A DNA stretch of 64,000 nucleotides from Liopterus haemorrhoidalis (lineage: Eukaryota; Arthropoda; Insecta; Coleoptera; Dytiscidae), in NCBI GenBank assembly GCA_963971575.1, contig OZ020622.1:15378879-15442878 (forward strand), read 5' to 3'. Positions 24,910 to 63,432 of the stretch are shown piece after piece. A model generated the notes under the pieces. The model searched no databases, was not told the DNA's origin, and saw nothing but the letters and a program-made list of their open reading frames with translations. Each line of letters starts with the position of its first letter. Position 1 is the stretch's first letter. The position numbers were made by a program, and so were the translations under genes.

Positions 24910-26031
24910 GATGTGAAGTGTGAATTTTCACACATTGCAGGGTTTCGCAGGTATATAATAAGTGAAGGCGGCATGCTGAGTGTGTAGGACAAATTTTGCT
25001 TTGTAGTAACCACGGCAAAATGAACGATCTTTTTAAAATAATTTATCGTCTGTTAATCTCAGAGCTTTAAAAACAAATTTTATGTTAAAATATTTTTTTG
25101 TTAATTTTAATTCGAATACCTAATATCATTATTTAGGTTTCTAAGTATTTTTTTTATATAACAAGGTTCATTAAGATTTTGAAAATTGGGCCTATGGCTT
25201 TCATTGGTTGTCTTAAATCATACGCTCCGCCCCTCTGGCTTCGTATAAATGACACAGAACGAAAATATAATTCCAATTGGTTATTAAATTTACGCTCTTG
25301 AAAATTAAATTCAAAATGTGCTAAAATATAACTAGAATTTTAACAAAATAATTTAAACATAATAAATATGAAAAAAAAAAACAAAAAATTAAATTGACTC
25401 CACAAGCCAGGAACGAACCTGTGTAGTGAATAACGATCCTGTGTGGTTGTCGAGCAACTGAGCCACTAGACCACCAAACGCTTATCAACTTCGTGTGTTT
25501 TAAGAGTATAACATGTATGCATCGTCAACCAAAAAACACAAAAAATGCGTTATTTTCCGAAAACATAATCTGATCAAAAATTCCTGTTGTACTATTCCGG
25601 TTCACACCATTATACATTACTTAGAATTTTTTCACATTTTTAGTTTAAACCATCTGGGCTACAGGGTGTGGGACAAAAATTTTTTTGCACAATTTTGGCA
25701 AAAATCGCCTCAAAATAATTTATTTTGCAAAAATTAAATTTTGATCGTTAATCCACGTACTAAGGGCTTTCATTTGATACCCTACTCAGAATTTTATAAA
25801 AAATATTTTTTTTTCGATGACCACATATTTGTTTATATTTTTAGGGGGATATGTTTTTTAGATGTTTTAGTATTTTTCCTATGTGCGGGTCAAAAAGTTG
25901 TACAAGCATGCCAATTTTCAACTCTCTAGGTTTAGCCGTTTGGCTACAATTTTTACCGAACAGACAGACAGACAGACAGACGACAAAATGACGGTATAAG
26001 GGTTTTTTGGTCATACCTACAAAACCCTAAA
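24910..26031 (-). mobile_element. Helentron-associated (HINE-like) element, copy H1
   Basis: Read on the minus strand it starts TTTTTAGGGTTTTGTAGGT, has GTCT repeats, conserved internal blocks and a tRNA-like cassette. It ends ACCTGCGAAACCCTG..., the hairpin GTGTGAAAATTCACAC and CTTCACATCA. It interrupts the transposase at AAAAAATT/TTGGAAG. The intact site in copy A shows that no target bases were duplicated and that insertion was between two Ts, the Helentron/Helitron2 habit. Confidence 0.75.
25395..25476 (-). ncRNA. tRNA-like Pol III cassette in HINE copy H1
   Basis: On the minus strand, A box TGGTCTAGTGG (25473-25463) matches the consensus. It is followed by CTCAGTTGCTCGACAACC, a B-box-like GGTTCGTTCC (25419-25410) and T-rich terminators. 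A clean cloverleaf is not evident, so this is a tRNA-derived module rather than a functional tRNA gene. Confidence 0.5.
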
Positions 26032-26067
26032 AAAGTTGGAAGAAGACGGAATAGAATTTCCATACAG

Positions 26068-26221
26068 TTTTTTTTATTTATTTTTAATGGCCTTTGCTGC
26101 TTCGGCAATTAGCCAGGACAATTATTATTTTTGAAAATAATTCCATCCCTGAACGGGATTCGAACGCGAGAGTTTAGCAACGTAGAGCACATGTGTTACC
26201 ACTACGCTACGCCGGTCGGCC
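26068..26221 (-). mobile_element. tRNA-derived SINE
   Basis: On the minus strand it begins GGGCCGACCGGCGTAGCG. It has an A box TAGCGTAGTGG, a B box CGTTCGAATCCCG, a short body (TTGCCGAAGCAGCAAAGG) and an A-rich tail. The host motif CCATAC is present on both sides as a short target duplication. Inserted in the IS630-like transposase. Confidence 0.8.
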
Positions 26222-26600
26222 CATACAAAGTTAGCCATATGTATAATTATTTGAAGTTGCTAGGATTTAGATATAGAACGTTAAGTAAACGTTTACATAT
26301 TATGGAATCAGATAGATTAGTAAACCCTATAGAACTAATATTAAGTCAATTAAAAGGTAATGTGCGCCGGAAAAATACAATACCGACAAAAAGTGACATT
26401 GTGGTACAATTAAGACGAAACAAGTGCAATAAGTAGTGATTTGTGAAAAAAAAAAAATGTGTAGAACATGTAAAGACAACTGAAACATTTTTTTTTTTTA
26501 TAAATCCACCAAATAAATTAATTATTAATTTAAATGACAGTGGTAGTGACACAAACTCCGATAGTGATATCAAAAATGATAATGATAAATATTTTAACAA

Positions 26601-27545
26601 TAGGGGATAGGCATGATTTTTTTTTATTTTTTTATTATATTCCTCTTGTTGTATATAAACATAAAAAACAGTTTTTAATTTTTTTTTTTTAATTTGAAGG
26701 CTTTAAAAAATCAAAAATGTATGTAGCGCGCGAAAACGACGTGTGACGTCATAATCCTTTCTAACTGACGCATGAGACTACTAGCCAATCCAGCGAACGG
26801 TTGTTTATGCAGCGAACATAGTCTGTTGTGAATTATTTGTTTGTGTAACTTTTATAGGTTATGTAAAGGAGAGTGATTTTAATTAAAATAAAGTTTAATT
26901 CTATAAAAACAATTTATACATGTTTACCGAATTAAATTTTATATTAAAATATGGAATATCCAGGCCCCAGTACTTCGAAACATTATCGAAAATATTGTTC
27001 AGTACCGATGTGCACAATTAGTTCAACTAGAAATCCAAAAAAACTATTTATATCATTACCTAATGGCGAAAAACAACAGAAAAGGCGAAATTTGTGGCTG
27101 AAAACTATGAGGCGAAATAAAACCGATATTTCAGAAAAAAGTAAACTTTATGTTGTGTGCATAAATGCATCAGTGTTGGGTAAATTATCACTCTGAGCCC
27201 TAACAAAATCTTTATCTGCCATTTTAATAGTAAATACGTGAAAAATTGTTTAAAAACAAATACAAAAGTCTCGAACAATACAATACACACACGTGTGAAG
27301 ATTATGTTGTAGCTGTCTGTATCTGTGATGTGAAAACCCTATCGTTTGACGTCATACTCAGTCGTTTCTACTCGGCAACCTTCGCCCCGTGCTCGGAATA
27401 TTTCAAATTTACAATATTTTAATTAAAAAATTTGGCTATAATGTTAATTAAAATGTGATTTTTGTTTTGTTAGGTGACATAACTAACATTAACATATCAA
27501 AATAATGTAGTTTTAAGGAAATACAAATTTTATGCGTATCCCCTA
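26601..27545. mobile_element. THAP-bearing DNA transposon remnant (possibly P-like)
   Basis: Ends TAGGGGATAGGCATGA and TTATGCGTATCCCCTA are inverted, with one mismatch in the first twelve bases. Flanks TTTTAACA and TTTTAAAT give only a degenerate 8-bp duplication. The interior holds a truncated THAP-domain frame at 26951. THAP plus an 8-bp duplication would suit the P superfamily, but no catalytic part is present, so the class is an inference. Confidence 0.5.
26951..27196 (+). pseudogene. Truncated THAP-type zinc finger frame
   Basis: The frame begins MEYPGPSTSKHYRKYCSVPM. It contains YCSVPMC, the first Cys pair, a basic helix region (KKLFISLPNGEKQQKRRNLW) and LYVVC, the third cysteine, of the C2CH THAP DNA-binding domain. 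The final histidine and the AVPTIF-type end are absent; the frame runs into an unrelated tail and a stop. THAP domains occur in P-element transposases and host regulators. Position inside a TIR-bounded element favours the former. Confidence 0.65.
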
Positions 27546-28550
27546 TTTTAAATTACTATAAATTGACAAGTTCAAAAAAATAATGATTTTTGTTTGTGCA
27601 AATTTGAAGTATTTAATATAGACAATAAAGACTTTAAAACAAAACGATTTTTAATCATACCTATATTTATAATTCAAATATAGCCAGTCCTAAGCCTGAT
27701 AAAAAAGTGAAGGAATGTTATGTGAGTATATACAGTTCATTCTAAATAGCATATAAGAAAACACAGTTATTTTAAATAATTATTACGGTCTTGTCAACTA
27801 CTATTAACAGAACCATAAACTCAGCAGGTATAATGGTTATACTGTCAGTCATTATTGGAATCAATAAGTGAGGGTGGCTATTTCATTTTGGAAATACATA
27901 CCTACTATATGCCTAAAAAAAAAAAAAAATAGAACCGACCGTTCTACTTTCCAAATTGAATAAGTTAATATTTAGAAAAAATTTATGTGAAGTGTGAATT
28001 TTCACACGTATCAGGGTTTTGTAGGGTTCCACGACAACTCATCTACAGACTTTACGTCTACGATATTTCGTAAACAGACATTAGGTATACCGACTTCTCG
28101 TCTACCACGACAATTCATATACAGATTTTTCGTCTACCATGACATTTAGTATACCGACTTTACGTCTACTAACCATTTCGTCTACCAGGTTAATTCGTCT
28201 ACTAAATTATATAAATATTTCAATTTGAATATAATAAAACTTGTGTAGTTATTTATGTTTATAGTGAGATTATAGTGAGTGTTTATTGTATTACTTTAAT
28301 TTCAATAAATTTTCAAATATACCCTCAAAATCAATTCAAATTTGCTTATTTAGAAATATTATTCAAGTTTTACTTATAAATAGGGCATTGTCTATGAATA
28401 TTTTGGGATATATAAAAACACAAAATTCATATTATTGTTAACTACACAAGTTATATTCAAATTGAAATATTTATACAGGCTATTGTATACTCTTGCAAAA
28501 AGTCAGCATTTCTTTTATTTTAAGAAAGAAAGTCGAATACATGTAATCTA

Positions 28551-29885
28551 CTTTTTTGGGGTTTTATAGATATGACCAAAAAACCCTTACACCGTCATTT
28601 TGTCGTCTGTCTGTGTTCGGTAAAAATTGTAGCCAAACGGCTAAACCTAGAGAGTTGAAATTTGGCATGCTTATACAACTTTTAGACCCGCACATAGGAA
28701 AAATACTAAAACATCTAAAAAATATATCCACCTAAAAATATAAACAAATATGTGCTCACCGAAAAAAAAATATTTTTTTTAATTCTGAGTAGGTTATCAA
28801 ATGAAAGCCTTTAGTACGTGGATTAACCATCAAAATTTTATTTTTGCAAAATAAATAATTTTTAAGCGATTTTTGCCAAAATTGTGCAAAAAAATTTTTG
28901 TCCCACACCCTGTAGCCCAGATGGTTTAAACTAAAAATCTGAAAAAATTCTAAGTAATGTACATTTGTATGAATCGGAATAGTACAACAGGAATTTTTGA
29001 TCAGATTATGTTTTCGGAAAATAACGCATTTTTTGTGTTTTTAACTAAAATATGTTAAATATTTAATTCGCTATGTAACACAGTAGATAAGTAGGCAGCG
29101 TTGTGCGTTTAGTTGTTTATTTGTGATTTGCAAACAATCATTTTCATCCGCAGCACCTATATTAAGAACCGCGGCAGATTCGAGGTGGCGGCAAAAGTAA
29201 ATTACCAAGTACAATAACTATAAGTAATTTTCACAATAGGACAAATTATCTCCAAACATATTTGTAGAATGGAGCTTTAGCTACAATTTGCCGCATGGTA
29301 CACAAATATGCGTTGAATGGTTTACAAGATGGCGTCTATAACGCAATTTGTTTATTTACAATTACATGACAGTTCTTTTTACAATTAAAAATATCCCATT
29401 AGATAGATAAAAATTCGCTGAAAAATTTTGATATATAGATTTTGATATAGAGTTCGAATCCTGTCAATTTTAATTTTTGTTTTTTTTAAGCATTTTTATT
29501 TTGTTTAAATTATTTTGTCAAAATTCTAGTTATATTTTGGTAAATGTTGCATTTAATTTTTAAAAGCATAAATTTAATAACCAGTGGGAAGTGTTGAAAT
29601 TATAATTTAATTCTATGTTTGAATGTATACGAAATCAGAGGGGCGGGCTTATGATTTAAGCAACCAATGGAAGCCATAGGCGCAATTTTCAAAGTCTTAA
29701 TGAACCTAGCTATATAAAAAAAATACTGCACATATTTAGAAACTTAAATAATGGTATTAGGCATTCGAATTAAAATTCATAAAAAAATATTTTGACATAT
29801 TTGTTTTGGCATACCAAATAATCATCATTCAGTTACTAAATACCTGCGAAGCCCTGAAATGTGTGAAAATTCATACTTCACATCA
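28551..29885 (+). mobile_element. HINE-like element, copy H2
   Basis: It begins TTTTTTGGGGTTTTATAGAT, has GTCTGTCTG and the conserved GCCAAACGGCTAAACC and AATGAAAGCC blocks. It ends TACCTGCGAAGCCCTGAAAT, a hairpin and CTTCACATCA, directly abutting copy H3. A B-box-like GAGTTCGAATCC is at about 29450, but the A box is not clear in this copy. Confidence 0.7.
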
Positions 29886-30809
29886 TTTTTAGGGTTTTGT
29901 AGGTATGACCAAAAAACCCTTATACCGTCATTTTGTCGTCTGTCTGTCTGTCTGTCTGTCTGTTCGGTAAAAATTGTAGCCAAACAGCTAAACCTAGAGA
30001 GTTGAAATTTGACATGCTTATACAACTCTTTGACCCGCACATAGGAAAAATACTAAAACATCTAAAAAACATACCCCCCTAAAAATATAAACAAATATGT
30101 GCTCATCAAAAACAAAAATATTTTTTTTAAATTATGAGTAGGGTATCAAATGAAAGCCCTTAGTACGTGGATTAACGATCAAATTTTTATTTTTGAAAAA
30201 TAAATTATTTTGATGCGATTTTTGCCAAAATTGTGCAAAAAATTTTTTGTCCCACACTCTGTAGCCCAGATGGTTTAAACTAAAAATCTAAATAAATTCT
30301 AAGGAATGTACATTTGTGTGAACCGAAATAGTACAACAGGAATTTTTGATCAGATTATGTTTTCGGAAAATAACGCATTTTTTGTAGTTTTTGGTTCACA
30401 AAGTACAAAAGTTATACCAATGTAAGACACTCACATGCAAGGCGTACGATGGCGTTATTGGTTAGAGCACTGGTGTCGTAAGCTAAAACTCGCTGGTAAA
30501 CGAAGGGTTTCGAGTTCGAGTACTGAGTGAATTTTATTTTTTCTGTTTTTTTTTTGCATTTTTATTAGTTGAAATTATTTTGTCAAAATTCTAGTTATAT
30601 TTTGACAAATGTTGTATTTAATTTTTAAGAGCGTAAATTTAATAATTATCTTATTATATGATTAACAGACGATAAATTATTTTAAAAATATCGTTCATTT
30701 TGCCGTGATTACTACAAAGTAAAATGTGTCCTACACACTCAGCATACCGCCTTCACTTATTATATACCTGCGAAACCCTGAAATGTGTGAATATTCACAC
30801 TTCACATCA
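29886..30809 (+). mobile_element. HINE-like element, copy H3, in tandem with H2
   Basis: It starts TTTTTAGGGTTTTGTAGGT immediately after the end of H2 and has five GTCT units at 29938-29960. It ends with hairpin GTGTGAATATTCACAC and TTCACATCA. Head-to-tail joining without spacer is characteristic of rolling-circle elements. Confidence 0.75.
30439..30529 (+). ncRNA. tRNA-like cassette in HINE copy H3
   Basis: GGCGTTATTGGTTAGAGCAC closely resembles a tRNA D-arm (A box with one extra base). TCGTAAG and the B-box-like GAGTTCGAGTAC follow, then T-runs. It is the same cassette type as in H6 (43831). Spacing is longer than in a tRNA and the stems do not pair well. Confidence 0.5.
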
Positions 30810-31557
30810 ATTTTTTTATTAAGACTTATGTTTATATAGAAAAGCACATTTTGAATAGGTTTGTTTTATTGACTCTGTATAAATAAATATTTTTGTTTAT
30901 AATACAAGCATTTTTTTTAAATATCTGTTTATTGCATTAAAAACTTAATATTTTTTTTGTACTTATTTACATATGTAATTGTAAATTGTATACAGTTAAT
31001 TTTATTCGCATTATAACTGAATTTGAAGCACCGTATCATCTTTTTACTAATACCCCTAAAACTTATTTTTTATAAATTGTTTAGAATAAAATAAAAGAAA
31101 ATTTTATTTTCGTAGACGAATTAACCTGGTAGAAGTAATATCAGTAGATTAAAAATCTGTATACGAATTGTCGTGGTAGACGAGAAATCCGTATACCTTA
31201 TGTCTGTATACGAAATGTCGTAGACGTAAAGTCTACGACATTTCGTATGTGTCTGTAGACGAGTTGTCGTGACCCCGTTTTGTAGGTATTTAATAAACGT
31301 AAGAAGCCAACATAACACTGAATGTCTAAGAATAATTGTTCTATAATCACATCAAAATCAACAGATATTTGATAACCATTTTTATACGTTATTTGAGTAC
31401 TACGAGCTTGCCGAAAATCCCAGCATTTTTTTCTGCATTTGCTTCGTAATCAAGTCTTAATTAGATTAATAACAAATATATTGAAAAAAGGCTTCATTTC
31501 TTTAAATTTTAGAAACGTATCAACAATGAGTTATTTGATTTATAAGTATTTCATTAC

Positions 31558-31962: not shown

Positions 31963-32232
31963 ATCCAATGAAGACTTGAATACGAAGCAGATATACAAAT
32001 GCAGAAAAAATATATTTGCAAATTATTTAAATTTTGTTTAAAAAAAGTAAATGGAAGCTCTTAGTTCTCAAATAACGAATAAAAGTAATCAAAAAAACTG
32101 TTGATTTTGATGTGATAAATATACCTAGATATCCAGTATTATGTTGGCTTCTTACAGGTATTAAATACCTGCAAAACCCTGAAATATGTGAAAATTCACA
32201 CTTCACTTCAATTTTTAACATATACTCTAGTC

Positions 32233-32521: not shown

Positions 32522-32584
32522 CTCTAGTCATTTACATACCTAACACAGCCCATGTGTTAGGCGCCAATAGCCACCGTTGCTATT

Positions 32585-34621: not shown

Positions 34622-34629
34622 TCGTAGCT

Positions 34630-35439: not shown

Positions 35440-36205
35440 GGTTAAAAACACAACACTGCCATATTTTTCACAATCTGATCAAAAATTTCTCTCGTACGTT
35501 TCCGGCTTAGATCAATATACCTTACTAAATATTTTTTCAGATTTTTAGTTTAACTAACCCCTTTGGGTAAAAGGGTGCGGGATAAGAACTTTTTTAGCAC
35601 ATTTTTGGCTAAAATAGTGTTAAAAGAAACGAATATCAAAAAACTATTTATAGTTCCTTAATCTAAGTCTTTCTTTTGGTACCACACAGTAAATTTTTTT
35701 TAAATATATTTTTTTATCAACAACACAAAAAAATCGACATTTTTCGAAAAACTTATGTGATCAAAAATTCTTGTTAAACTATTCCGGTTCCCATCGATGC
35801 TCATTACGGGAATTATTTTCAGATTTTTAGATCAGCCCCTCTGGGAGATAGGTTGGGCGACAAAGTTTATCGACACTTTTGGCGAAAATCCCATAAAAAA
35901 GATTTAGAATCAAAAATAAAAATTTGCATGGTGATAAACGGATTAAGAGATTTCATTTAATATGCAATTCAAAATTTTAAATAATATTTATTTTTTTTAT
36001 TAAATATGTACATATTTGTATATATTTATCTCGGGATGTGCTTTTTTGAACTCTCAGTATTTTTCCTACATGTGGGTCAAAGAGTTGTATAAGCATACCA
36101 AATTTCAACCATCTATGTTGAGCCGTTTGGCTACAATTTCTACTGTAGACAGACACACGAGTGACGTTGTAAGGGTTTTATGGTGGTCATAGCTAAAAAA
36201 CCCTA
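35440..36205 (-). mobile_element. Diverged HINE-like element, copy H8
   Basis: On the minus strand the start TTTTTAGGGTTTTTTAGCTA is followed by the conserved blocks AGCCAAACGGCTCAAC and ATACAACTCTTTGACCC. Further blocks such as TTTTTGATCAGATTG occur near 35475. It is much more diverged than the other copies and its 3' end was not fixed. Confidence 0.5.
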
Positions 36206-36544
36206 AAAAATAACCAAATCCAAATGGTAGCAACAAATAAACTAATCCAACTAATGGCGAAATGAAAACAATTCGAATCAAAAGAAGGACAAAACCAGGA
36301 ATCGAACCTGGAAGCATTGTATGGAACCAGGCGCGCACAGAAAAAAATTGTCTGGGGGGTCCATTTCACAAAAATAATCGTAAAATAATACAAATTTATT
36401 ATTGATCTCTTACGGCGAAGGATGAAAACGGGACTTTTAATTTCAATTGCTTGGTTTTTATTAAACAAGTACGATATTTTCGTTCCTGGGAGGGGGGGGG
36501 GGGGGTTCGGAACTGAGGACATACCCTTTTTTACGCTCCTTGTT

Positions 36545-36890
36545 TAGGGTGACCATTTTCTTAAGAAGGCAATGCGGGACGGAGCACAAAAAGGTCGTCA
36601 CTTCCCAAATATAAGTGAAGAGCAAAAAAAAGGTCCTCACCACCCAAATCCAAGTGAAGAGCAAAAAAAAGGTCCCCACCTCCCAAATCTAAGTGAAGAG
36701 CAAAACAAAAGGTCCCCACCTCCCAAATCTAAGTGAAGAGCAAAACAAAAGGTCCTCATTTCCTCAAATACAAGTTACAATGCGGGACAAAATGTTAAAA
36801 TGCGGGACTTTTGCAGGACGCATCTTAATGCGGGACACCCAATCAAAATGCGGGATAGTCCCGCAAAAAGCGGGACGAATGGTCACCCTA
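36545..36890. mobile_element. hAT-like element, family TAGGGTGACCA, with GGTCCTCAC minisatellite
   Basis: Ends TAGGGTGACCATTTT and GAATGGTCACCCTA; flanks TCCTTGTT and TCCTTGAT match at 7 of 8 bases. The interior has five tandem units of about 50 bp (GGTCCTCACC...CCAAATCTAAGTGAAGAGC). ATGCGGGAC motifs lie inside both ends. Confidence 0.85.
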
Positions 36891-39089: not shown

Positions 39090-40143
39090 CTTTTTAGGGT
39101 TTTGTAGGTATGACCAAAAAACCCTTATACCGTCATTTTGTCGTCTGTCTGTCTGTCTGTTCGGTAAAAATTGTAGCCAAACGGCTAAACCTAGAGAGAT
39201 GAAATTTGGCATGCTTATACAACTCTTTGACCCGCACATAGGAAAAATACTAAAACATCTAAAAAACATATCCCCCTAAAAATATAAACAAATATATGCT
39301 CATCGAAAAAAAAATATTTTTTTACAATTCTGTGTAGGGTATCAAATGAAAGCCCTTGGTACTTAGATTAACGATAAAAAAATAATTTTTGCAAAATAAA
39401 TTATTTTGAGGCGATTTTTGCCAAAATTGTGCAAAAAAATTTTTATCCCACAGCCTGTAGCCTAGATGGTTTAAACTAAAAATATGAAAAAATTCTCAGT
39501 AATGTACATTGGTGTGAACCGGAATAGTACAACAGGAATTTTTGATCAGATAATGTTTTCGGAAAATAATGCATTTTTTGTGTTTTTAACTAAAATATGT
39601 AATATATTTAATCCGCTATTTAACATAGTGAACGAGTGAACCTTCGTAGTACAGTGGTAGCGTTGTCGCTCAGTGAGCTGTAACTACCGAAGAAACTAGT
39701 CTTCGAATCCCATTAATTTTTATTTTTTTTGTTTTCTTTTTTGCATTGTTATTTAATTTAAATTATTTTGTCAAAAATTCTAGTTATATTTTGGTAAATG
39801 TTGCATTTAATTTTTGAAAGCGTAAATGGGATAAAATTAACCAGTGGAAAGTGTTGAAATTATAATTTAATTCTATTTGAATGTATACGAAATCAGAGGG
39901 CGGGATTAATGATTTAAGCGACCAATGGAAACCATAGGCGCAATTTTCAAAATCTTAATGAAGCTTGCTTTATAAAAAAAATACTGCACATATTTAGAAA
40001 CTTAAATAATGGTATTAGGCATTCGAATTAAAATTCATAAAAAAATATTTTGACAAAATTTTTTTGGCATCCCAAATAATCATCATACAGTTACTAAATA
40101 CCTGCGAAACCCTGAAATGTGTGAAAATTCACACTTCACATCC
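39090..40143 (+). mobile_element. HINE-like element, copy H5
   Basis: It starts CTTTTTAGGGTTTTGTAGGT and has GTCTGTCTGTCTGTT at 39143-39160. It ends TACCTGCGAAACCCTGAAAT, hairpin GTGTGAAAATTCACAC and TTCACATC. Contains a tRNA-like cassette. Confidence 0.8.
39640..39713 (+). ncRNA. tRNA-like Pol III cassette in HINE copy H5
   Basis: A box TAGTACAGTGG (39647-39657) fits the consensus exactly. The B-box-like TCTTCGAATCC is at 39700-39710, 53 bp downstream, followed by TTTTTATTTTTTTT as a possible Pol III terminator. Upstream flank AACGAGTGAAC is shared with copy H7. Not a canonical cloverleaf. Confidence 0.55.
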
Positions 40144-40370
40144 ATTTTTTTAGGTCATCACTTGATTCTTTTTCATAATTTAAATAATTTTGTCTTTCCC
40201 CAACAAAAATTCTTGGGTGCGCCACTGGAAGGCGGCATGCTGAGTGTGTAGGACAAAATTTGCTTTGTAGTAATCACAGCAAAATGAACTATATATTTTA
40301 AAATAATTTATCGTCTGTTAATCTAAGAGTTTTAAAAACAAATTTTATGCTAAAATATTTTTTTGTTAAA

Positions 40371-43285: not shown

Positions 43286-44196
43286 TTTTTAGGGTTTTGT
43301 AGGTATGACCAAAAAACCCTTATACCGTCATTTTGCCGTCTGTCTGTCTGTCTGTTCGGTAAAAAATGTAGCCAAACGGCTAAACCTAGAGAGTTGAAAT
43401 TTGGCATGCTTATACAACTCTTTGACCCGCACATAGGAAAAATTCTAAAACATCTAAAAAACATACCCCCCTAAAAATATAAACAAATATGTGCTCATCG
43501 AAAACAAAAATATTTTTTTTAAATTCTGAGTAGGGTATCAAATGAAAGCCCTTAGTACGTGGTTTAACGACCAAATTTTTATTTTTGCAAAATAAATTAT
43601 TTTGATGCGATTTTTGCCAAATTGTGCAAAAAAATTTTTGTCCCACACCCTGTAGCCCAGATGGTTTAAACTAAAAATCTAAAAAAATTCTAAGTAATGT
43701 ATATTAGTGTGAACCGAAATAGTACAACAGGAATTTTTGATCAGATTATGTTTTCGGAAAATAACGCATTTTTTGTGGTTTTTGGTTCACAAAGTACAAA
43801 AGTTATACCAATGTAAGACACTCACATGCAAGGCGTGCGATAGCGTAATGGTTAGAGCACTGGTGTCGTAAGCTAAAATGCGCTGGAAACGAAGGGTTTC
43901 GAGTTCGAGTACGGAGTGAATTTTATTTTTTGTTTTTTTTTTGCATTTTTATTGTTGAAATTATTTTGTCAAAATTCTAGTTATATTTTGACAAATGTTG
44001 CATTTAATTTTTAAGAACGTATATTTAATAACCAGTCTTATTATATGATTAACAGACGATACATTATTTAAAAAATATCGTTCATTTTGCCGTGATTACT
44101 ACAAAGTAAAATTTGTCCTACACACTTAGCATGCCGCCTTCACTTATTATATACCTGCGAAACCCTGAAATGTGTGAATATTCACACTTCACATCA
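43286..44196 (+). mobile_element. HINE-like element, copy H6, inside Tc1
   Basis: It starts TTTTTAGGGTTTTGTAGGT, has GTCTGTCTGTCTGTT, and ends TACCTGCGAAACCCTGAAAT, hairpin GTGTGAATATTCACAC, TTCACATCA. It is the innermost and so the youngest layer of this nest. The 3' module (GCCGTGATTACTACAAAGTA) is shared with H1, H3 and H4. Confidence 0.8.
43831..43917 (+). ncRNA. tRNA-like Pol III cassette in HINE copy H6
   Basis: TAGCGTAATGGTTAGAGCAC (43841-43860) is an exact A-box/D-arm match. TGGTGTCGTAAGC follows, resembling the anticodon arm of tRNA-Thr(CGT). A B-box-like GAGTTCGAGTAC is at 43901-43912, then T-runs. The region between the arms is about 15 nt longer than in a tRNA. Confidence 0.55.
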
Positions 44197-44345
44197 ATTT
44201 TTTAAAACATCATAAGTGGTTATAATATTTTGTCTAGGTACTGTAGAAGCAACCATGTTAGCAAAAGGAGGGAATTCCTATAAGATTCCGCGAATTCATA
44301 AGGCAAAACTTCATCGTAAGAGACGACTACAAACATTATCATGTT

Positions 44346-44671
44346 CAGAGCCGGCGCAAGGGTCTGCGGCGCCCGCATGCAAGATTTAATTGAACGCCCT
44401 TAAGTAGGGCAATTAGCTTTATTCGAAATCTTTCCTTAAAAAAAAGGTCCTCACTTCTAAATTCCAAGTGGAGACCTAAAAAAAAGGTCCTTACTTTTTC
44501 ATTTTAAGTGAAGACCTAAAAAAAGGTCCTCACTTCTAAAATTACATTTCACTATCTTACTTTTATAATCATTTGGTCATTTAGCGCCCTTTTATATCTC
44601 ACGTCAGCGCCCCCCTCGCAGTAGCGCCTGAATGCACCGCATGCCTTGCATGCCCGTCAGCGCTGGCTCTG
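44346..44671. mobile_element. hAT-like MITE, ends CAGAGCCGGCGCAAG
   Basis: Ends CAGAGCCGGCGCAAG and CAGCGCTGGCTCTG; flanks ATCATGTT and ATAATGTT match at 7 of 8 bases. Three units of the GGTCCTCACTTCTAAA minisatellite lie at about 44445-44545. Confidence 0.8.
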
Positions 44672-44696
44672 ATAATGTTCCATACAAGCTGTGGAG

Positions 44697-44960
44697 CAGT
44701 AGCGGACTAAGCCTTTGCCGGGCCTAAGACATTTTTGATTTACGGGCCCTCAACCTATGTTTTTTTTAAAAAAGGTCCTTACCTCCCAAAAACAAGGTCC
44801 TCACCTCCCAAATCCAAGTGGAGAGCAAAAAAAAAGGTCCTCACCTCCCAAATCCAACTGAAGAACAAAAAAAAAGGTCCTCACCTCCCAAATCAGGGCC
44901 CTTGAAAATTACGGGCCCAAGACAAATATCTTTTTTGTCTAAGGGGATAATCCGTCACTG
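44697..44960. mobile_element. hAT-like MITE, ends CAGTAGCGGACTAAGCC
   Basis: Ends CAGTAGCGGACTAAGCC and GGATAATCCGTCACTG, perfect 8-bp duplication CTGTGGAG (44689-44696, 44961-44968). Four units of the GGTCCTCACCTCCCAAATCC minisatellite fill the middle, flanked by GGGCCC motifs. Confidence 0.9.
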
Positions 44961-49200: not shown

Positions 49201-52200
49201 AGCTGGTCCGAACAATCTGTCTAACGTTGTAGCTTTGGATAAAAATCTTCTAGCTGGATCACTTTTACCTAAAACATATTTTATACTTATTTGTGGAGTT
49301 AAAAAAAAAAAAAAAAAAAGATCTTACCTATGACGTAATAGTAACAACCTACAGCAAACCATGATATTGCTAAATCAGGGTATAAGTCCACTAATTTATG
49401 AGCTAATGAGAAAAGACCTGAAAAAAAATTGTGTTCTTAGGATCACGCGGTAGAAGTGAAACATACGTGGGAAAGATAGTAGCTACAGTCTGTTCCAAAC
49501 GGTTAAGCGGAACTAAATGGGAATTTAGTTCTTTTAGGTTGTCACGAGAAGGAACCTTGCTTGGGTTATTTAATTTTTCACGTTGGGATGTCAAAATTAA
49601 ATATTTTTTTTTATATTTTAATGACAAAAAAATAAATAAATGGGAAATTTGTATTAAGAATGACACAAAAAATCAAAATATAAAGAAAATGACATTTTAA
49701 AATGATATTAACCTTAACCAAAAAATGTTTATTGTAAGAATGATTTACAAAGCTTAAACAAAACGGCTGAAAGGCACGATTTAAACGATGAAAGTAACTA
49801 GATTGCAAAATCTAGTTCCGCTTAATCGTTTGGAACAGACTGTATCATAAGTATGGAAACTTTTTATTTTCTTAATAAAAATTAAATTGTTATAGATATT
49901 TTCTTTTCTTGTTATTTGTACATAATTCACGAGAAAAAAGAAATATTTTGCAACAATTAGAATAAATTATATTTACATATTCAAAATTTTACATTGAAAT
50001 ATTAAATTGCACCTGGCCAAAAAGTATGGAAACCTTATCAAACATACTCTACTATGCAATAAACAGATTGTTGAATTGAAGATTTTAGTATAAAACTTAT
50101 TCATTATTACATTAATAATATCTTTGAAATTATTTTGCAATGGTCCAATATTAATTCGGACACCGTTATTTTGGACGTTTGCCATTGCTGATAGTACTAG
50201 GCTAGAATAGTACAATATAATGAGTATTAGTATCAAAAAGATACTTACTTTTTGAAAATAATACTTCATGAGTATATAAAATATATTCGGACATTTCGGA
50301 AACTGCTCAACAATCTGTTTCCGTCTTCAGCGATCACAAGAAGTGATATACATTAAAATTTTCTTCGAGTTTTTATACCGGGTATTGTAAGTGTGGGACC
50401 AGGTTATAGGTGTGTTGCTATTGGTTGGGTGGTTGGGATCAGCTATAGGTAGGGACGGGACTACCTGCGGAGGATTAACGACCAGATTAAGGTTGTTTGT
50501 CACATTATTGTGTGGTAATATATTTTATATACTCATAAATTATTATATCTTTTTGATACTAATACTTATTATATTGTACTTTTCTAGCCTAGTACTATCA
50601 GCAATGGCAAACGTCTAAAATAATGGTGTCCGCATTATTCTATTGACGTGTTTTACAGTACCATGCCTCAGAAAAAATATTATTCTTGCGTTGTAAAAAC
50701 AAAAATTATTCAATTATACCACAGTGGCAATAAACCGTGACATTTATAAAATTTTAAAAATACCAAAAGGTACGATTTCAAAAATTATAAAGATATTTAA
50801 TGATGTGAGGCACCGTGGACGTTAAATTAAAAAAATCACACATTTCTTATCAGTAATTTTTTATTAGTGATCAAAAATGATCGTGAAATTACACGAATTT
50901 CACTTCAATTAGGACTAAAATTTGATTGAAAGGAACATCCTCTTAACAAGAACATAGCTGCGTATCTATAAGACTAACATTAGTCTTATAAATACGCAGC
51001 TCATACGTTAGCACTTATAGGTAACATAATACATACGTTATTTAGTACAAATTTATTCCGTAGAATAGTGTTTTACCTTGAATTTAGTGGGCTTTTAGTA
51101 ACATGACGGTTATTTTCGAACAGCCTGTATAATGCTGATTAACATGCACTGTCTGTTTGGTAGAAAATATGGTATTTTAATTTTTAAGTGTTTTTTTAAA
51201 AGTATCTAGCTGTATCTAGATATTTTTTTAAATGCATCTATTACAACACTGTTTCCTACATTCATTTTGATATATTAAATAAAATACATAAGCATGACTC
51301 AAGTTGCATTTATATGTATATAACAAAAGTTTCCATACTTATGGCCACTACTGTATATAATACTTCTATATAGCGCACGCTTATCTTACTACATTGGCAA
51401 AATGTCTGGCGACGAAATAAGACGGAAAAATGGTTTCTCAGTTTAAACTGCTAGGAATGTATATATGCGCATGACCAAAATGACAGGGAATTTTAGATTT
51501 ATAAAAGCATTACCAACAGAAGGAAATGAAAATGTTCATTCTAATTAGTGCTGGGAACCGAAACCGGTTTTTCGGGTACCCGGTTCCGGTTTTCGGGTAA
51601 AACCGGGTTTGTAATTTTCGCGTTACCCGGATACCCGGTTCCGATTACCCGGTTCCAAATAACCGGTTCCGGATACCCGGTTCCGATTACCCGGTTCCGA
51701 ATTGCCGATTCCGGATACCCGGTTTCAGATACCCGGCTTCGAATACCCGGTTCCAGATACGCGATTCCGAGTTCCCTGATTGAAACTTGATATTTAGTAC
51801 AGGAATACCAGATGTTTAAAATTACAAAATTTTACGATAGTAGGTACCTACTTAGGAATTTCCAAATTCCAAACATCTTGTGTTAGATGAAAACGAGATA
51901 CCTATTTAGAATTTAGAGTATTCATTCATATTTTGTCTTTAATAATGACAACAAATCCTTGGCCTCGCAAATCCTAGCGCCGGCCCTGGTACAGAGTCTG
52001 ACTATTGGAGAATTTTGATAAGAATTCGTGTTCGCAAAAGGTATACAAAGAAGCGAAGAAGATCGCGTATTGTACACTGGAACATTAATAGTGATTTTGT
52101 AGTTCAACACATGATAATAGATTATTAAGAATTTTATGCAAAATATTCATGTCAGTCAAAGTGCGACGATCCTTTAGTGTGAGAAAATTAAACTCGGCGC

Positions 52201-55200
52201 AACATATATTATAATTGATATAGTTGTAAAATATCAAAAATATATATTATAAAGAAGTTGTTTAGAATTAAAATAAAGAAACGATTACAATTTTTTTTTT
52301 CTATTCAAAATTGATAATGTATATAACAAAAACCGTACGTAGTAGATGCACGTCAGCAAATATTACTTAACGTATTTTAATCACAATAACCATAACTGTT
52401 ATGATACTGGAAACCGAAACATGTTTAACGGGTATCCGGTTCTGGATTTCGGGTAAAACCGGTACGTAATTTTGAAGTAACCCGGTTCCGGATACCTCAT
52501 CCAGAATATCCGGTTCCGATTACACGGTTCCGGATACCCGGTTCTGATTCCCCGGTTTCGGATACCCGGTTCCGGGTACCCGGTTCCGATTACCCGGTTC
52601 TGATTACCCGGTTTCGGATACCCGGTTCCGAAACCAGGTAACCGGGTAAACCCGAAACCGGTTTTATTTTTGGAACCGGTTCCGGTTCCGTCAAGATCGA
52701 TTTCTGACAGCACTTATTCTAATTTACAAACATTAATCAAAATCGGTTTCCTAAAATATTAAGTTAATTTTTTAGGTTTTAACTGTTGAATAATTATTAA
52801 AACTAACATTTCAAATTGTATTTATTTACTTGGAAATAATTTCTAAACCAGGCTTGTCTAACTCGCGGCCCATGGGCCACATGTGGCCCATGATGGCTAT
52901 GAATGCGGCCCAACGAAAAATCGTAACCTTTCAAACTTTATAATACTGCGATTACAAGTACCATTAATAATACTACAATTTCAACTAGCTATTAATTTAT
53001 AAGCGATGTATTTTTTAATTTAATGCGTTCTTTAGAGAGAATCTTAGTATTAGTATTATTTTATGTGCGGCCCAAAACAACTTGTTTTCTTATAATGTGG
53101 CACAGGAAAGTTAAAAGGTTGGACACCCCTAGTCTAAACTGACGCACACGCGGTATCGCATTTATAGGATAATAATAATAATAATATTATAATATAAATT
53201 TAAACTTACTATTTGACTCTTTCAGTTCAACGAGACATGCAATATGAACGGGTAAACAATCACTATGATATGGATCCTTCTTTAAAACCTCTTCAGTTAC
53301 CTGTTTACATTTCTGATATTCACAATTATAATACAATCGTTCAGCTGTCGAAACTACTAAATCTAAACTCTCCTGTAGTTTACTAACAATCGGTAGTGTT
53401 TCTTCCTGTATTTTTTCGTCGGCCCATCGTGTATCATTCAACGGAGTACTCGCTGTGTTCATATATGATGAAATAGGGGTTATAGCTGGAACGGGAAGGA
53501 TTATTTCAGGCATCGTAAGATTTATACCAGGGGTTATGACTTCTTTTACGTTTCCTGTGGTATGATATTTTTTTAATTTGCTTTCGTAGAGAAGTCGTAG
53601 AATTATTCCTTCTGTTTTTGAACACTGTGCTGAGATTGGCATTGAATCTAAAAGTTCTCGCTCTGCAAATATTGAGAGATTAGTTTTAGAACATATTAAT
53701 TCAATATAGATACGCAATAAAGAACCAAGCAAAAAATTACTAATTTTGAATTATAGCCATTTGAAACTGTACCGCATTAACATCAGGGCTTGAAATGTAC
53801 CAGAGCAAACGTAACAAAAGTAACTCCTTATACCAACAGATAAGAAAACATTTTTCTGCCCCTCTTTCTGTACCTAGTACACGGTCGAACTAGTCCCTCA
53901 GTATAATCTCCTTAATTTCTGAATTCCTAACATCCATTTGACTAAATCTCTAACATCCTCACGCCATCTTCGTATTGCTAATACCCTTTTCACACTAGAA
54001 CTTTAAGACGAATGAATTTAAAGTCCACCGATATTCAATATCGGTTTGCTTTCACACTAGGGGCCGGTTTCTGAAAGCTTAGTTAACTGTAACCAAATAA
54101 TTAGAAAATGGTTCCTATGGTTACTTATGGGATTGTTATATTGTAACCAAGTTTAACCAAAAGATTAAACTCGGCTAAGCTCTCAGAAGAAGCTTACCAA
54201 AAATCTAACAAGTATTGATATACAGGGTACTCGGCAAGACCTGACAATGAATAGATCAAGGTGGAGGACTTACGTGAGCGAGACCAAAAGTCAACCTGAC
54301 TGATAGTGCCCAAAGAAGCAGAAAAAGCTTTCAGAAACCGGCCTTAGATGTTTAAATCTCCGGTGTTGCCATCTGCTACGGTAATTTTGTTATTAAGTTT
54401 GCGTCAGAAAATTACTACATGTCATTTCTTTGGTTTAGGCAGAACTAAATGGGAATTTTGTTCTTTTAGGTTGTCACGAAAGGGGACCTTACTTGGTTAA
54501 TTCATGTTTCACGTTGGTATGGGAAAATTTAAAATTCCAACAGTGAAACCTTGGAAACGAATGACGTTTGTTAAAAATATGATTTTTACATATTTTAAAG
54601 ACAAAAAAAAAAAAAAAAAATGGGAAATTTGTATTGAGAATGACACAAAAAATCAAAGTATAATGAAAATGACATTTTACAATGTCATTAACCTTAACCT
54701 AAAAATGTTTATTGTAAGTATGATTTACAAAGCTTAACCAAAGTTGTCAAAAGCTCGAATCAAACTATAAAAATTACTATATTGCAAAATCTAGTTCCGC
54801 CTAAAGGTTTGGAATAGCCAATAGTTTTGTACTCTCTGCGCAGACGCACATTTAAAATTATTATTAAACACATATGGATATTTTATTCCATTCTACAATA
54901 AAGATGCTACAATAAAGAATATATTACATCTGTTTTAACGAACAGGCTATTCCAAACGTTTAGGCGGAACTAAATGGAAATTTCGTTCTTTTAGGTTGCC
55001 ACGAGAAGAGACCTGGCTTGGGTTATTTAATTTTCCCGTTGGAAAGTAAAAATTAAAAATTCCAAGAGTGAAACCATGGAAACGAATGACATACGTCAAT
55101 AATAAAATACCGTTTTACATATTTTAATTAAAAAAAAAAAAAAATAATTGGGAAATTTGTATTAAGTTGACATAAAAAATCAAAATATAAAAAAAAATAC

Positions 55201-59090: not shown

Positions 59091-59184
59091 ATGTCTGCTC
59101 TTGAATGTGGTGGTTATTTATTTTTTTCAAATTTCGACTCTGGAAATTTAGCAAAAGTAGAATGTGTGCCAAAGAGCGAAAGCT
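59091..59184 (+). CDS. AGBL5: AGBL5 (cytosolic carboxypeptidase 5), first coding exon
   Basis: AGBL5/CCP5 is an M14 metallocarboxypeptidase that removes branch-point glutamates from polyglutamylated tubulin. Only the N-terminus is here: 31 codons starting MSALECGGYLFFSNFDSGNL and ending KVECVPKSES, then a GTAAGT donor after 59184 (phase 1). CGG-LFxSxFDSGNLAxVE is the conserved opening of the family's N-terminal domain. The catalytic domain must be encoded beyond 64000. I found no second exon in the remaining 4.8 kb, so intron 1 is longer than that. The start was chosen because family members begin 3-5 residues before the CGG motif. Confidence 0.88.
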
Positions 59185-60357
59185 GTAAGTACTCCATTTG
59201 TTTTTATACATAATGTATATTAAATAGTCAGAAAATTATCCTATCGCTGGATAATTCTTACGAAAAACCTAAAGCATTGATTTCAACGAAACTTTGTAGA
59301 TACATATTCTATTATTTACAAAACATTATCATCATTTTTATATAACAATACTTGTGTTTACATTAAAAAGAATCAACTTATGTGTTTTATTGTTTCGTAG
59401 AGTAAAAATAAACTGTTTTTTTCATATTTATTTTTATAAATTGTGTAATCTTCGGTAGCCAAGAATATAAATAGCATATTTATAACGGATTACATTTAAA
59501 AATAGATATATTTCATTGATTATTAAATCCAAAAATTAGTTTAACTAGTTATGGTCAGTGGTGGCGTTAAATATATTTATAGGGGCATTGAATATTAAAA
59601 CAAGAATCAATAGCGGTTCGTGAGAAAAAAAAAATGTTTACCTGAAACTAAACAGGATTTTTATTTCCTTAAGTTGTCACAAGCTCACTTTTTAACGATT
59701 GAATGAAGCTTTTGTTGAATAAAATGGTCAAAAGCCCCATTCCATCGTTAGTTACTATATTTCAAAATCTAGTTCCGTTTCAATCAAAGATACGCTATAT
59801 AAGTGTGGTCTAGATGCTAGGCTGTATTAATTGCAGTCTAGACAGAGGCTGAACAGAGCATCACACCGCTTAATCTATTCCGCACTAGCAGATTTGTGTT
59901 GCGAGGAGTTCGGATTATAGGTTTATTGTATATTGCAATTTGTAAATGAATGAGTTGGGCTGCTTTACAGTGGTTCTACAGATGCTTCCTGACTTACACA
60001 ATAGTTCCGGAAGGCATTTCATAACTCAAATGTAGCGTACTTTAGATACTGGGTTATTATAAGCTAATTATGGATCAAAGCAAAATAAAACAGCAGGACA
60101 ATGTCAATTAAATAAGCATCTCTCGGTAATATATTGACATATTGATAGAGACAGGTATAGAGATCCACAAGCTGCGCTGAACGGGAGTCAGAGTTGCCAA
60201 CCTTTGAACGTAATATTATGGTGCCTGCGTCACATATACCATCGTGCGATGGATGATGGCGCGGATTTCAAATATTGTGTTGTTTTTTATTCGAAAACTG
60301 CGTAAGTTTGAACTTACATAAATGGAAGAACGTCTATATTATCAAAGATTATAAATA
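59185..60357. other. AGBL5 intron 1, first part
   Basis: Contains a decayed TTCCGCTTAA-family MITE at about 59641-59790 (AAACTAAACAGGATTTTTAT to AAAATCTAGTTCCG) and a possible hAT start at 59566 (CAGTGGTGGCGTT). No exon seen. Confidence 0.5.
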
Positions 60358-61219
60358 GGGGAGACTGTTGCAATATTTCTTTAAAATTGATCTAGAAACT
60401 AGATGCGCTCAAAATTCTGATGACGCCACACGTCAAACTGAAGATTTGCGTGTTAAAAAAATCTAGACTATTTAAAATTTAAATAAACTAGATTTTTTAT
60501 ATAAATTTTATTAATTTCTATAAATCGTCTCGCACCCCTCAAAATGCTTTCCCGCACCCCCGGTTGGGAACCACTGCTCTAGGAGCCTCTATGTGATATA
60601 TGTAGTTATCTATGTTGTTAGACAGCCTGTTGGTTTCTTTTGTTATCAGTTTTCTTGCTATTAAGTTAATTGAAAAAAAGGTTTTTTTTATATATACTTT
60701 ATTTATATGGTCTTGTAGACCGGGAGCTCATGACATTTTTGGTCTCCGATTTCATACAGCATGCCTTTTGGAGGAGAGAATATTTACCCTGTGACAACAA
60801 AAAAGGGATGGTACTAAACCCCTGCACGCTTTCCGGTCATAGGGAAAATTGCATTTCCACTTGCACAAAATTTTTGTGTTTTTCTCTGATTTAATATTGC
60901 TTGCCCTTTTGTCAACAGAAAGTTATAACAAATTTAAAGTCTTTGTTTTCCTAGAAATTATTTAATGAAAATGAGATTATTTATTTATAGCTAGTTAGTT
61001 AGTTACTTTATTTATACCTTTCGGTTAAAATCTACATATTATTTACATACAGTTTATGGTTAAATTCTGTGGCAAATTTATAAGCTACAGCCGATCGTAT
61101 CTAAAAAAATATTTTATGTGTTGTTATGGACAGTTTCTTATAGGTGTTGTCTGTAAGCTTACAGATTTGCCACAGACTTGCAACGTTAATTTAATTTATT
61201 TTAAAATACGTACTCTAAT

Positions 61220-62165
61220 TGTTGTTGAATCTTCGTCTAAATTCTTATCTTATTTCTAAGACGTCCTCCATCCATTTCCTTCCTTGCCCTGATTCACACA
61301 ACTCGCCTTCTCTTGTTCCTTCTTTAAATTTCATTTCTCCACAATTCTTCATTATATGCTCCAAGGTCTCTTTTTCCTCCCCACACAGCCTGCATATTCT
61401 TTGTTCATCTGTTATCCAGTATTCATTTTCTCTTTCCTCATTTCCGCACCTAAATCTAGCTATTGCTTCCTTTTTTAATTCATTACTTTGGATTTTAAGG
61501 TACTCAGGTATTTGCGTCGTTCAAGTTTTCTTGTAGTTGCTGTTATGCCTCGAACTTTTTTACATCTCACTTCTTTCTTGTCCTTGGATATCCTTCATTC
61601 TATCTGTTATTTCTAGTGACACATTTTGTCCTTCCGACCTCTTTCTTGTTATTTCCTTAGTTGAGTAGCTATTATGCTCAAATATTTTCCTTCTTTTTGC
61701 TTCCCATCTGGATTGCGTCTTTCCTTGTATCTATTTTCTCTATATTTCTGTCCAGCACTGATACAGCAACTTTTTTTTCTTGATGTCTTATTATCGTTTC
61801 TTTGAATTTAATGGCTCTTTATGTTGTTTCTATTCTGATGTTGTCTAATTTCACTTCCTCTAATAAAATATAGTCCGGTGGGAATTTGTCTAGGCCAGGG
61901 GTCGGCAACCTTTTTGTCAATAAGGGCGCAATATAAATTCAAATGTTATTGAGGGCGCATAAAAACGTAAAATATGTAAACGCTCGTGGTTCGCAAGGTC
62001 ATCTAATCTAGCTCTGATCGCTCAAGTTGAATCACCAATAGATGCGATGTGGATATTGGGCTCAGTATGTGTGTGTCTCGATAGCGAGGGCGCATAAAAA
62101 TCTCACTGAGGGCGCCGTGTTGCCGACCCCTGGTCTAGGCCCAACATCCATTTGAGTTTGTTTTT
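61220..62165 (-). pseudogene. LINE reverse transcriptase C-terminal region, decayed
   Basis: On the minus strand from about 62160, frames give LGLDKFPPDYILLEEVKLDN, TIIRHQEKKVAVSVLDRNIE, then ARFRCGNEERENEYWITDEQ and RICRLCGEEKETLEHIMKNC. This CxxC...H...C knuckle is typical of the end of R1/Jockey-like LINE proteins. Several stops and frameshifts occur. The hAT-like MITE 61896-62132 is inserted in it, with its target duplication inside the coding sequence. Confidence 0.8.
61896..62132. mobile_element. hAT-like MITE, ends CAGGGGTCGGCAAC
   Basis: Ends CAGGGGTCGGCAACC and TGTTGCCGACCCCTG, perfect 8-bp duplication GTCTAGGC (61888-61895, 62133-62140). GAGGGCGC motifs lie inside. Confidence 0.9.
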
Positions 62166-62401
62166 TTTTTTTTTTCATGAAAATATTACTTTTTTGTAAT
62201 TCAGTTATAAATTCTTTATTATGAGTTATTTAACCCCTCTAGACTGTTATAAAAATTATTTATTATTAATAGTAATTAACATGAATAAATGTTTCGATGT
62301 GCAAGGGGGTATGTTCCAAGGTACAACACCATTTGTACCATGGAGGTTTAGAAAATAATTTAAAAAAATAATATAATAAAGGAAATAATAATATAAAAAA
62401 T

Positions 62402-63432
62402 TTATGTGAAGTGTGCATTTTCACACATTTCAGGGTTTCGCAGGTATTTAGTAAGTGAATGATGATTATTTGAGATGCCAACAAATTTTAACTTAAAATA
62501 TTTTTTTATTAATTTTAATTAGGATGCCTAATACCATTATTTGGGTTTCTAAATATTTGCAGTATTTTTTTTATATAAGGTTCATTAATATTTTGAAAAT
62601 TGCACCTACGGCTTCCATTGGTTGTTTAAGTCATAAACTCCGCCCCTCTGATTTCGTATACATTCAAACATAGAATTAAATTATAATTTCAACACTTCTC
62701 ACTGGTTATTAAATTTATGCTTTTAAAAATTAAATGCAACATTTGCCAAAATATAACTAGAATTTTGACAGAATAATTTAAACAAAATAAAAATGAAAAA
62801 AAAAAAAAAAAAAAACAAAAAAATTGACGGGAATCGAACAGTAGTTTGCAACTTACGAAGCGAGAACGTTACCACAGGATTACGGACGTTCACTCGTTTA
62901 CTGTGTTAAATAGCGGATTAAATATTTTACATATTTTAGTTAAAAACACAAAAAATGCGTTATTTTCCGAAAACATAATCTGATTGAATCAAAAATTCCT
63001 GTTATACTATTCCGGTTTACACCAATGTACATTACTTAGAATTTTTTCAGATTTTTAGTTTAAACCATCTGGGCTACAGGGTGTGGGACAAATTTTTTTT
63101 TGCACAATTTTGGCAAACACGTCAAATTACTTTATTTTGCAAAAATAAAATTTTGATCGTTAATCCACGTACTAAGGGCTTTCATTTGATACCCTACTCA
63201 GAATTTAAAAAAAATATATTTTTATTTTGATGAGCATATTTATATTTTTAGGGGGATATGGTTTTTAGATGTTTTAGTATTTTTCCTATGTGCGGGTCAA
63301 AGAGTTGTATAAGCATGTCAAATTTCAACTCTCTAGGTTTAGCCGTTTGACTACAATTTTTACCGAACAGACAGACAGACGACAAAATGACGGTATAAGG
63401 GTTTTTTGGTCATACCTACAAAACCCTAAAAA
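62402..63432 (-). mobile_element. HINE-like element, copy H7
   Basis: On the minus strand it starts TTTTTAGGGTTTTGTAGGT and has a short GTCTGTCTGTT tract. It ends CCTGCGAAACCCTGAAATG, a hairpin region and CTTCACATAA. It shares the 3' module and the tRNA-cassette flanks with H5. Confidence 0.75.
62824..62891 (-). ncRNA. tRNA-like Pol III cassette in HINE copy H7
   Basis: On the minus strand, a weak A box (TAATCCTGTGG, 62882-62872), TCTCGCTTCGTAAG, and B box TGTTCGATTCC (62840-62830; one mismatch to consensus) are followed by a T-run. Start-to-start spacing is 42 bp, nearly that of a tRNA. Confidence 0.5.

Follow-up and report, generated by a model that had tools for sequence, protein, structure and literature searches.

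A Helentron Family with a tRNA-like, Predicted RNA Polymerase III Module at a Fixed Position within Its Elements, from the Genome of the Beetle Liopterus haemorrhoidalis

A 64,000-nucleotide stretch of the Liopterus haemorrhoidalis genome (contig OZ020622.1, positions 15,378,879 to 15,442,878; the whole stretch is referred to as the window) contains, at 24899-63431, six copies of one family of short Helentron-type elements (HINEs), with a module at the same position in each. Analysis of these copies and of their relatives elsewhere in the genome indicates that this is a Helentron family, comprising both coding and short copies, in which a tRNA-like module at a fixed place probably constitutes a type 2 transcription unit of RNA polymerase III (Pol III), as predicted from its sequence. 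An original prediction, made from the window alone, had grouped H1, H3, H5, H6, and H7 as copies sharing ends, a GTCT run, and internal blocks; the grouping stands for these five, but the count does not, because H4 had been missed.

The window is part of contig C11 in a 1.02-Gb genome assembled as 91 contigs. Each of the two anchor blocks flanking the module was found six times in the window (≤3 mismatches), against a mean of 0.02 in 100 shuffles, and the left anchor, a 20-nt block end, gave 15,355 exact matches in the genome, whereas its reversed control gave none. Additional loci, comprising 20 stretches of 10 kb and 20 of 1.3-2.1 kb, were taken from contig C1 around listed matches to the left anchor and are therefore biased toward copies in which the anchor is intact. 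Together with the window and five search loci, these stretches amount to 306 kb and contain 69 copies with both flanking blocks. Alignment and clustering of modules were performed with 68 of them, H4 being left out for its insertion.

A genome search for the Helitron Rep domain (Helitron_like_N) returned at least 91 matches, among which open frames of 2,492 aa were present in two copies, both on contig C14. The parent element (loci L063 and L061) is ∼10,343 bp long, contains an intact open reading frame (ORF), and has the same ends and all of the blocks found in the short copies. It begins with TTTTTTAGGGTTTTGTAGGTATGACC and is arranged in the order 5′ end with GTCT run, block B, module, block C, 3′ bodies D1 and D2, ORF, and 3′ end. 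The encoded protein possesses Rep (PF14214), PIF1 helicase (PF05970), and C-terminal Exo_endo_phos (PF03372) domains, which is the Helentron set. Over residues 1000-1400, the closest protein matched at 66%, and the nearest named relatives were those of Leptopilina heterotoma (59%) and Vanessa cardui (57%). Both autonomous copies carry an A box, TAGTGCAATGG, and a B box, GTTCAAATC, each exact, and the module of the second copy, around which 701 bases were read, is near-identical to the first. The sampled HINE types retain D1 and D2, D1 alone, or D2 alone ahead of the 3′ end. This is how deletion derivatives would look, and the short copies are laid out like products of internal deletion in which the module was retained.

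The ends of the copies are likewise of Helentron type. A T-run precedes the 5′ start, AGGGTTTTGTAGGTATGACC, and its GTCT run, and the 3′ end, TACCTGCGAAACCCTGAAATGTGTGAAAATTCACACTTCACATCA or a close variant, is followed by a further T-run; T-runs flank both ends of most copies, and no other flanking repeats were seen by eye. Most copies with ends in view contain the subterminal inverted repeats AGGGTTTTGTAGGTA at the 5′ end and TACCTGCGAAACCCT near the 3′ end, an inverted match with two differences (by eye) that corresponds to the 12-15-bp repeats of HINEs. A palindrome, GTGTGAAAATTCACAC or GTGTGAATATTCACAC, lies ∼15 nt from the 3′ end (by eye), also as in HINEs. The Helentron-type identity originally proposed is thus upheld by a layout that matches published HINEs and by the coding parent with the same ends. 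The 3′ flank CATACTTATATGTAACGTTT is common to L031, L036, and L055, pointing either to insertion in one repeat or to a flank that was carried along. H4 and H5 (28554-30819) form a head-to-tail pair, as left by rolling-circle elements, and L042 is similar. A diverged relative of the family at 35441-36209 (−) is about 74% identical in block B, which is partly repeated; by eye it has no A/B-box module at that place, and L034:6102-6655 (−) looks similar.

Two other Helitron-like elements (L060, 1,664 aa; L062, 1,134 aa) had no A/B pair with ≤1 mismatch on the ORF strand of the fetched ORF-adjacent sequence. No relative of the Helentron protein (P0001) was confirmed in viral contigs, and other conserved pieces of the element had no match there. 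The block-end pattern matched one viral contig and six bacterial genome contigs, which had nothing in common beyond the 20 to 25 matching bases. A AAAAGGTCCTCAC-type unit of ∼39-44 bp forms short tandem arrays in the window at 11671-11918, 22056-22163, 36588-36758, and 44437-44894, and sequence resembling them by eye lies upstream of the autonomous ORF (L061 around 1620-1800).

The 68 modules align over a leader, a core, and a T-rich trailer and fall into ten clusters (26, 10, 8, 6, 5, 3, 3, 3, 3, and 1 members), here called core types sf1 to sf10. The three module types originally distinguished reappear as sf3 (H5 and H7), sf10 (H3 and H6), and sf1 (H1), but are only part of the ten. Mismatches were counted throughout against the consensus sequences TRGYNNARNGG (A box) and GWTCRANNC (B box), one additional base being permitted in the consensus for the A box of H5. 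An A and B box pair with ≤1 mismatch was present in 41 of 69 modules, as compared with 2/137 stretches of block B, 0/67 antisense modules, and 0/67 downstream stretches; the A and B boxes of the earlier claim are therefore above chance. The A box is exact in the consensus sequences of eight of the ten core types and in the parent, and the pair with ≤1 mismatch is found in nine of ten and in the parent, a result reached by 0-8 of 300 shuffles. Exact A boxes had been assigned to H1, H5, and H6, of which only H1 qualifies (H5 and H6 have one and two mismatches, respectively); the exact A boxes of the window are those of H1, H3, and H7.

Comparison between core types revealed an identity of 0.70 in the box columns and 0.49 in the remaining core (permutation p 0.0002), so that the boxes are, as had been proposed for a check, better kept than their surroundings in the core. 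TTTT occurs ≤21 nt past the B box in all 66 scorable copies, with the trailer T-rich throughout, and 59 of the 66 have no TTTT between the boxes. The A and B boxes are 34-65 nt apart, start to start. Judged from sequence, the module has the features of a predicted type 2 (A/B box) Pol III unit in every core type except sf8. The spacing peaks near 43, 53-54, and 63 nt, in steps of about ten bases that go largely with core type; helical phasing of TFIIIC sites is one possible reason.

Models of complete tRNAs did not recognize the modules: ARAGORN at default settings called 0/69, and the tRNA-model check suggested with the original prediction gave the same answer with Rfam for the modules searched. 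Relaxed ARAGORN settings produced many mutually contradictory calls, which were treated as noise. The possibility that the modules are tRNA genes was accordingly rejected, no cloverleaf having been recognized. Partial likeness to tRNA is nonetheless evident. Acceptor-like pairing of ≥6 bp was found in 22 of 65 modules (null mean 7.7, maximum 14 in 200 draws), although nine of the 22 are closely related sf1 copies, so that kin are counted repeatedly; some types and the parent keep 6-7 bp of pairing at the position of the tRNA acceptor stem. When cores were compared with 20 host tRNA genes (ten anticodons, out of at least 61 listed) and six typed tRNAs, eight of 11 (the ten types and the parent) scored above the best of 100 letter shuffles. 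The best match of sf1, sf7, sf8, and sf9 was a typed, unchecked tRNA and provides a lead only. With the fetched host tRNA-Thr(UGU), the match of the sf3 core of L028 covers the 5′ half, beginning at the A box and reaching the anticodon loop, and scores 42, whereas the top score of this core with another core type was 31 and the highest among 100 shuffles was 27. On this single indication, part of one core type, sf3, may have been replaced by host tRNA-Thr sequence. On its sequence characteristics, the module is tRNA-like and not a tRNA.

The cores differ far more between types than the sequence around them. Mean identity between type consensus sequences was 0.956 for block B (nine types) and 0.929 for block C (ten types), as compared with 0.639 for the leader, 0.545 for the core, and 0.91 for the trailer. 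The switch between conserved blocks that had been noticed in the window is therefore real. Single-copy differences were taken as changes that followed insertion, and in sf3 (n = 25) these were nearly even along the element (0.0095 per site per copy in block B and 0.0086 in the core); hypermutation of the core in individual copies was rejected as the sole cause. Shared variants per site, by contrast, were concentrated in the core, with values of 0.33 versus 0.054 in block B for sf3 and 0.28 versus 0.047 for sf10 (n = 8), and the contrast persisted in the 17 sf3 copies without core deletions (Fisher odds 4.7, p 0.0004). It follows that in sf3 and sf10 the core changed mainly in the source lineages.

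A number of observations weigh against the reading of the module as a tRNA-like Pol III unit shaped in source lineages. With ≤2 mismatches, the box pair is found in 64/69 modules, yet also in 60/137 block-B stretches (1/67 antisense and 0/67 downstream). The single copy of sf8 has no good B box, and 107 of 300 shuffles do as well; the A box drifts within sf3, where 22.5% of letters depart from the type consensus, and those of H5 and H6 deviate from the general one. TTTT lies between the boxes in seven of 66 copies, including all three of sf2. The Rfam tRNA model (RF00005) found nothing in 24700-63600, at 20 other loci, or within the module of the second autonomous copy, and the parent module folded no better than shuffles (z +1.37). 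The mean acceptor-pairing score was 5.33, against a null of 5.19 (highest null 5.58), and the cores of sf2, sf6, and the parent did not exceed their shuffles in similarity to tRNAs. As to rates, single-copy changes in the 17-copy sf3 set were also higher in the core (0.216 versus 0.147 per site in block B), and sf1 (n = 9) had no excess of shared core changes.

Recombination or recapture, with complete tRNA-derived modules traded among copies at the site between the conserved blocks, would account for flanks that are 93-96% identical between core types that are themselves 54% identical, and for best tRNA matches that vary by core type, the sf3 core of L028 being closest to host tRNA-Thr(UGU). 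The block-B tree, which is poorly resolved (2/58 inner branches strongly supported), speaks on both sides. It requires 17 changes of core label, where the minimum possible is 8 and the mean after shuffling is 34. Core types sf2, sf6, and sf7 are scattered on it, sf10 needs six changes for eight rows, and for sf6 and sf10 two or more changes are unavoidable given the strongly supported branches of the tree; the scattered types therefore leave room for some exchange, which lowers the odds of the reading favored here and raises those of swapping. On the same tree, sf3 forms one side of a branch (support 71) and clades were not rejected for sf1 (p-AU 0.24), sf10 (0.15), or sf5 (0.59).

Further evidence runs counter to exchange. 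Core type and 3′ body class did not mix in any of the 64 labeled copies with a body in view, of which three had no visible 3′ end (a further four copies showed no body). Seven of the ten core types belong to the D1-only class, so this test covers swaps between three classes rather than ten, and swaps within the D1-only class are invisible to it. Leaders and trailers align across core types, seven core types and the parent are linked by core scores of 40-69, and L043 and L025 appear by eye to be intermediate between sf4 and sf5. The interchangeable cassettes of the original prediction were thus not borne out. Descent with unequal rates explains the pattern better than free exchange does, but some exchange among the D1-only types may have occurred; free swapping of whole cassettes is unlikely.

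The module might instead be a passive relic, i.e. a tRNA gene captured once, without function, whose core decays neutrally between flanks constrained for transposition. This would fit with the failure to detect a tRNA fold, with boxes that are weak or lost in some copies and in sf8, and with flanks that may hold sites required for transposition. It is harder to reconcile with the better preservation, between types, of box columns relative to the rest of the core and with exact boxes that persist in both autonomous copies, and a divergence of 4-7% as opposed to 45% would need very strong constraint on ∼470 nt of non-coding flank. We regard a relic of this kind as quite improbable.

tRNA-derived short interspersed elements (SINEs) have the A and B boxes of the type 2 Pol III promoter, and the A box, B box, and T-run of the modules resemble the heads of such SINEs, as independent insertions into ancestral Helentron copies would predict. 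In addition, GCATTTTT occurs in the trailer as well as in the left anchor of 41/68 copies. It is, however, the only direct repeat noticed around the module, and it appears in 9-20% of trailer shuffles for the six types having it, so that it does not clearly exceed chance; no target duplication stands out around the cassettes. In the first ∼3.1 Mb of C1, the B-box sequence of sf3 was found at 37 places, of which 20 were adjacent to an exact anchor and one belonged to a copy of the sample. Of the 16 others, fetched as stretches of 76-78 bases, 15 had the anchor with one to three letters changed and one had block B bearing a deletion, so that 0/37 sf3 cores were free-standing. BLAST revealed no free-standing module of any core type in the 306-kb sample; three matches outside elements proved to be one element copy with an unrecognized block C. 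Moreover, the parent Helentron has the module at the same place, and ∼60 nt of the module precede the A box, more than would fit the start of a SINE. The alternative offered with the original prediction, that the cassettes are SINEs, was rejected in view of the 37 sf3 cores located inside elements and the lack of clear target duplications, and is extremely improbable.

With the module read as a Pol III unit integral to the family, a possible history can be outlined. An ancestor would have taken up a tRNA gene as DNA, together with the terminator and the 5′ flank, and the putative product of the module would be a short RNA made by Pol III and ending at the T-run. Selection on source elements would likely keep this unit active, its most likely use being to keep the 5′ region of the element accessible and occupied by TFIIIC so that the rolling-circle process can begin; alternatively, TFIIIC might pause forks or act as an insulator. 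The excess of core changes in source lineages might reflect selection for novel core sequences, a guess from the rate pattern, and such novelty could perhaps provide escape from sequence-directed silencing. The fuller proposal, in which amplification of the family depends on a tRNA-like RNA unit at the 5′ end and source lineages repeatedly remodel the core, partly with host tRNA, while the boxes stay fixed and novelty is selected, is put forward tentatively and is rather doubtful. If true, it would amount to a genuine hybrid of Helentron and SINE logic, operating across at least ten lineages in one genome.

Table 1. Coordinates of HINE copies, modules, and module elements in the window
Feature	Position	Strand	Description
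H1	24899-26032	−	HINE copy, core type sf1, 3′ bodies D1+D2
H1 module (leader, core, trailer)	25348-25538	−	tRNA-like
H1 A box	25463-25473	−	TGGTCTAGTGG, exact
H1 B box	25410-25418	−	GTTCGTTCC, 1 mismatch to GWTCRANNC
H1 T-run	25383-25388	−	
H4	28554-29895	+	Sixth HINE copy, 5′ end altered, 3′ end abuts H5 5′ end
H4 module	29036-29513	+	sf6-like leader and B box region (AGTTCGAATCC), ∼300-bp insertion between; sf6 likeness by eye
H5	29887-30819	+	HINE copy, core type sf3, 3′ body D2 only
H5 module	30385-30578	+	
H5 A box	30450-30461	+	TGGCGTTATTGG, 1 mismatch
H5 B box	30514-30522	+	GTTCGAGTA, 1 mismatch
H5 T-run	30532-30535	+	
H3	39092-40153	+	HINE copy, core type sf10, 3′ body D1 only
H3 module	39581-39766	+	
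H3 A box	39647-39657	+	TAGTACAGTGG, exact
H3 B box	39701-39709	+	CTTCGAATC, 1 mismatch
H3 T-run	39717-39721	+	
H7	43287-44206	+	HINE copy, core type sf3, 3′ body D2 only
H7 module	43776-43964	+	
H7 A box	43841-43851	+	TAGCGTAATGG, exact
H7 B box	43903-43911	+	GTTCGAGTA, 1 mismatch
H7 T-run	43921-43924	+	
Block B, example H7	43370-43775	+	Conserved 5′ body
Block C, example H7	43965-44035	+	Conserved block containing CAAAATTCTAGTTATATTTTG
3′ end, example H7	44155-44206	+	Subterminal inverted repeat CTGCGAAACCCT, palindrome GTGTGAATATTCACAC, T-run
H6	62392-63431	−	HINE copy, core type sf10, 3′ body D1 only
H6 module	62773-62948	−	
H6 A box	62872-62882	−	TAATCCTGTGG, 2 mismatches
H6 B box	62831-62839	−	GTTCGATTC, exact
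H6 T-run	62817-62823	−	

The A box of the H4 module is unrecognizable. The insertion in this module, at about 29136-29444, consists of ∼300 bp of another repeat, pieces of which match the window at 3340-3396 (+) and 17122-17214 (−). Elsewhere in the window, a match resembling the type-P1 twister ribozyme lies at 27648-27717 (+), scoring 37.5 bits (E 8.7e-5), less than the curated threshold of 67.2. A 14-bp CCGGATACCCGGTT-type unit makes up minisatellites at 51627-51770 and 52480-52631, and a 923-aa open frame at 7975-10746 (−) resembles those of non-LTR retrotransposons, with endonuclease and reverse transcriptase recognized by eye.

It is known that protein-coding genes are picked up by Helitrons and Helentrons. 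In the present family, the tRNA-like module with its boxes belongs to the structure of an intact autonomous Helentron and of its very numerous derivatives. If the module is transcribed, rolling-circle transposition would be linked to the Pol III machinery. The ten core types in one genome provide a natural test of where in such a unit constraint acts. Among the open-licence matches listed, no title or opening of an abstract mentions a tRNA-like Pol III module in a Helitron or Helentron.

The accessible text on Arabidopsis describes tRNA-Cys clusters that overlap Helitrons (PMC10701932) and resemble the present case in that tRNA genes lie within Helitron-annotated sequence. The Arabidopsis repeat units number four to six, are local, and contain real tRNA genes, and the part played by the Helitron is uncertain, whereas the family described here is dispersed, has a coding parent, and carries a module that is tRNA-like rather than a tRNA. 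The tRNA-derived SINEs of moths (PMC8010984, PMC3272025), as far as the accessible text describes them, similarly possess a tRNA-related 5′ part; unlike them, the module described here is part of the interior of a DNA transposon, includes a leader of ∼50 nt, and had no free-standing copies in the sequence searched. Also among the close known systems are the Hel-2 non-autonomous Helitrons of Lepidoptera (Coates 2015, PMC4344730), which share the non-autonomous state, a 3′ hairpin, subterminal inverted repeats, and a (CTGT)n tetranucleotide run following the 5′ repeat; the word tRNA is absent from the main text of that study.

The HINEs and Helentrons of Thomas et al. 2014 (PMC4067079) are described as having the same subterminal inverted repeats, 3′ palindrome, and microsatellite, and probably share the T-rich target. 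High copy number, an autonomous partner with Rep/helicase and a C-terminal endonuclease, and HINEs that are deletion derivatives are common to both. Term searches of the main text by Thomas et al. returned no mention of tRNA, promoter, Pol III, snRNA, or noncoding. What sets the Liopterus family apart from the elements described there is the tRNA-like module with A and B boxes that separates the 5′ body from the ORF.

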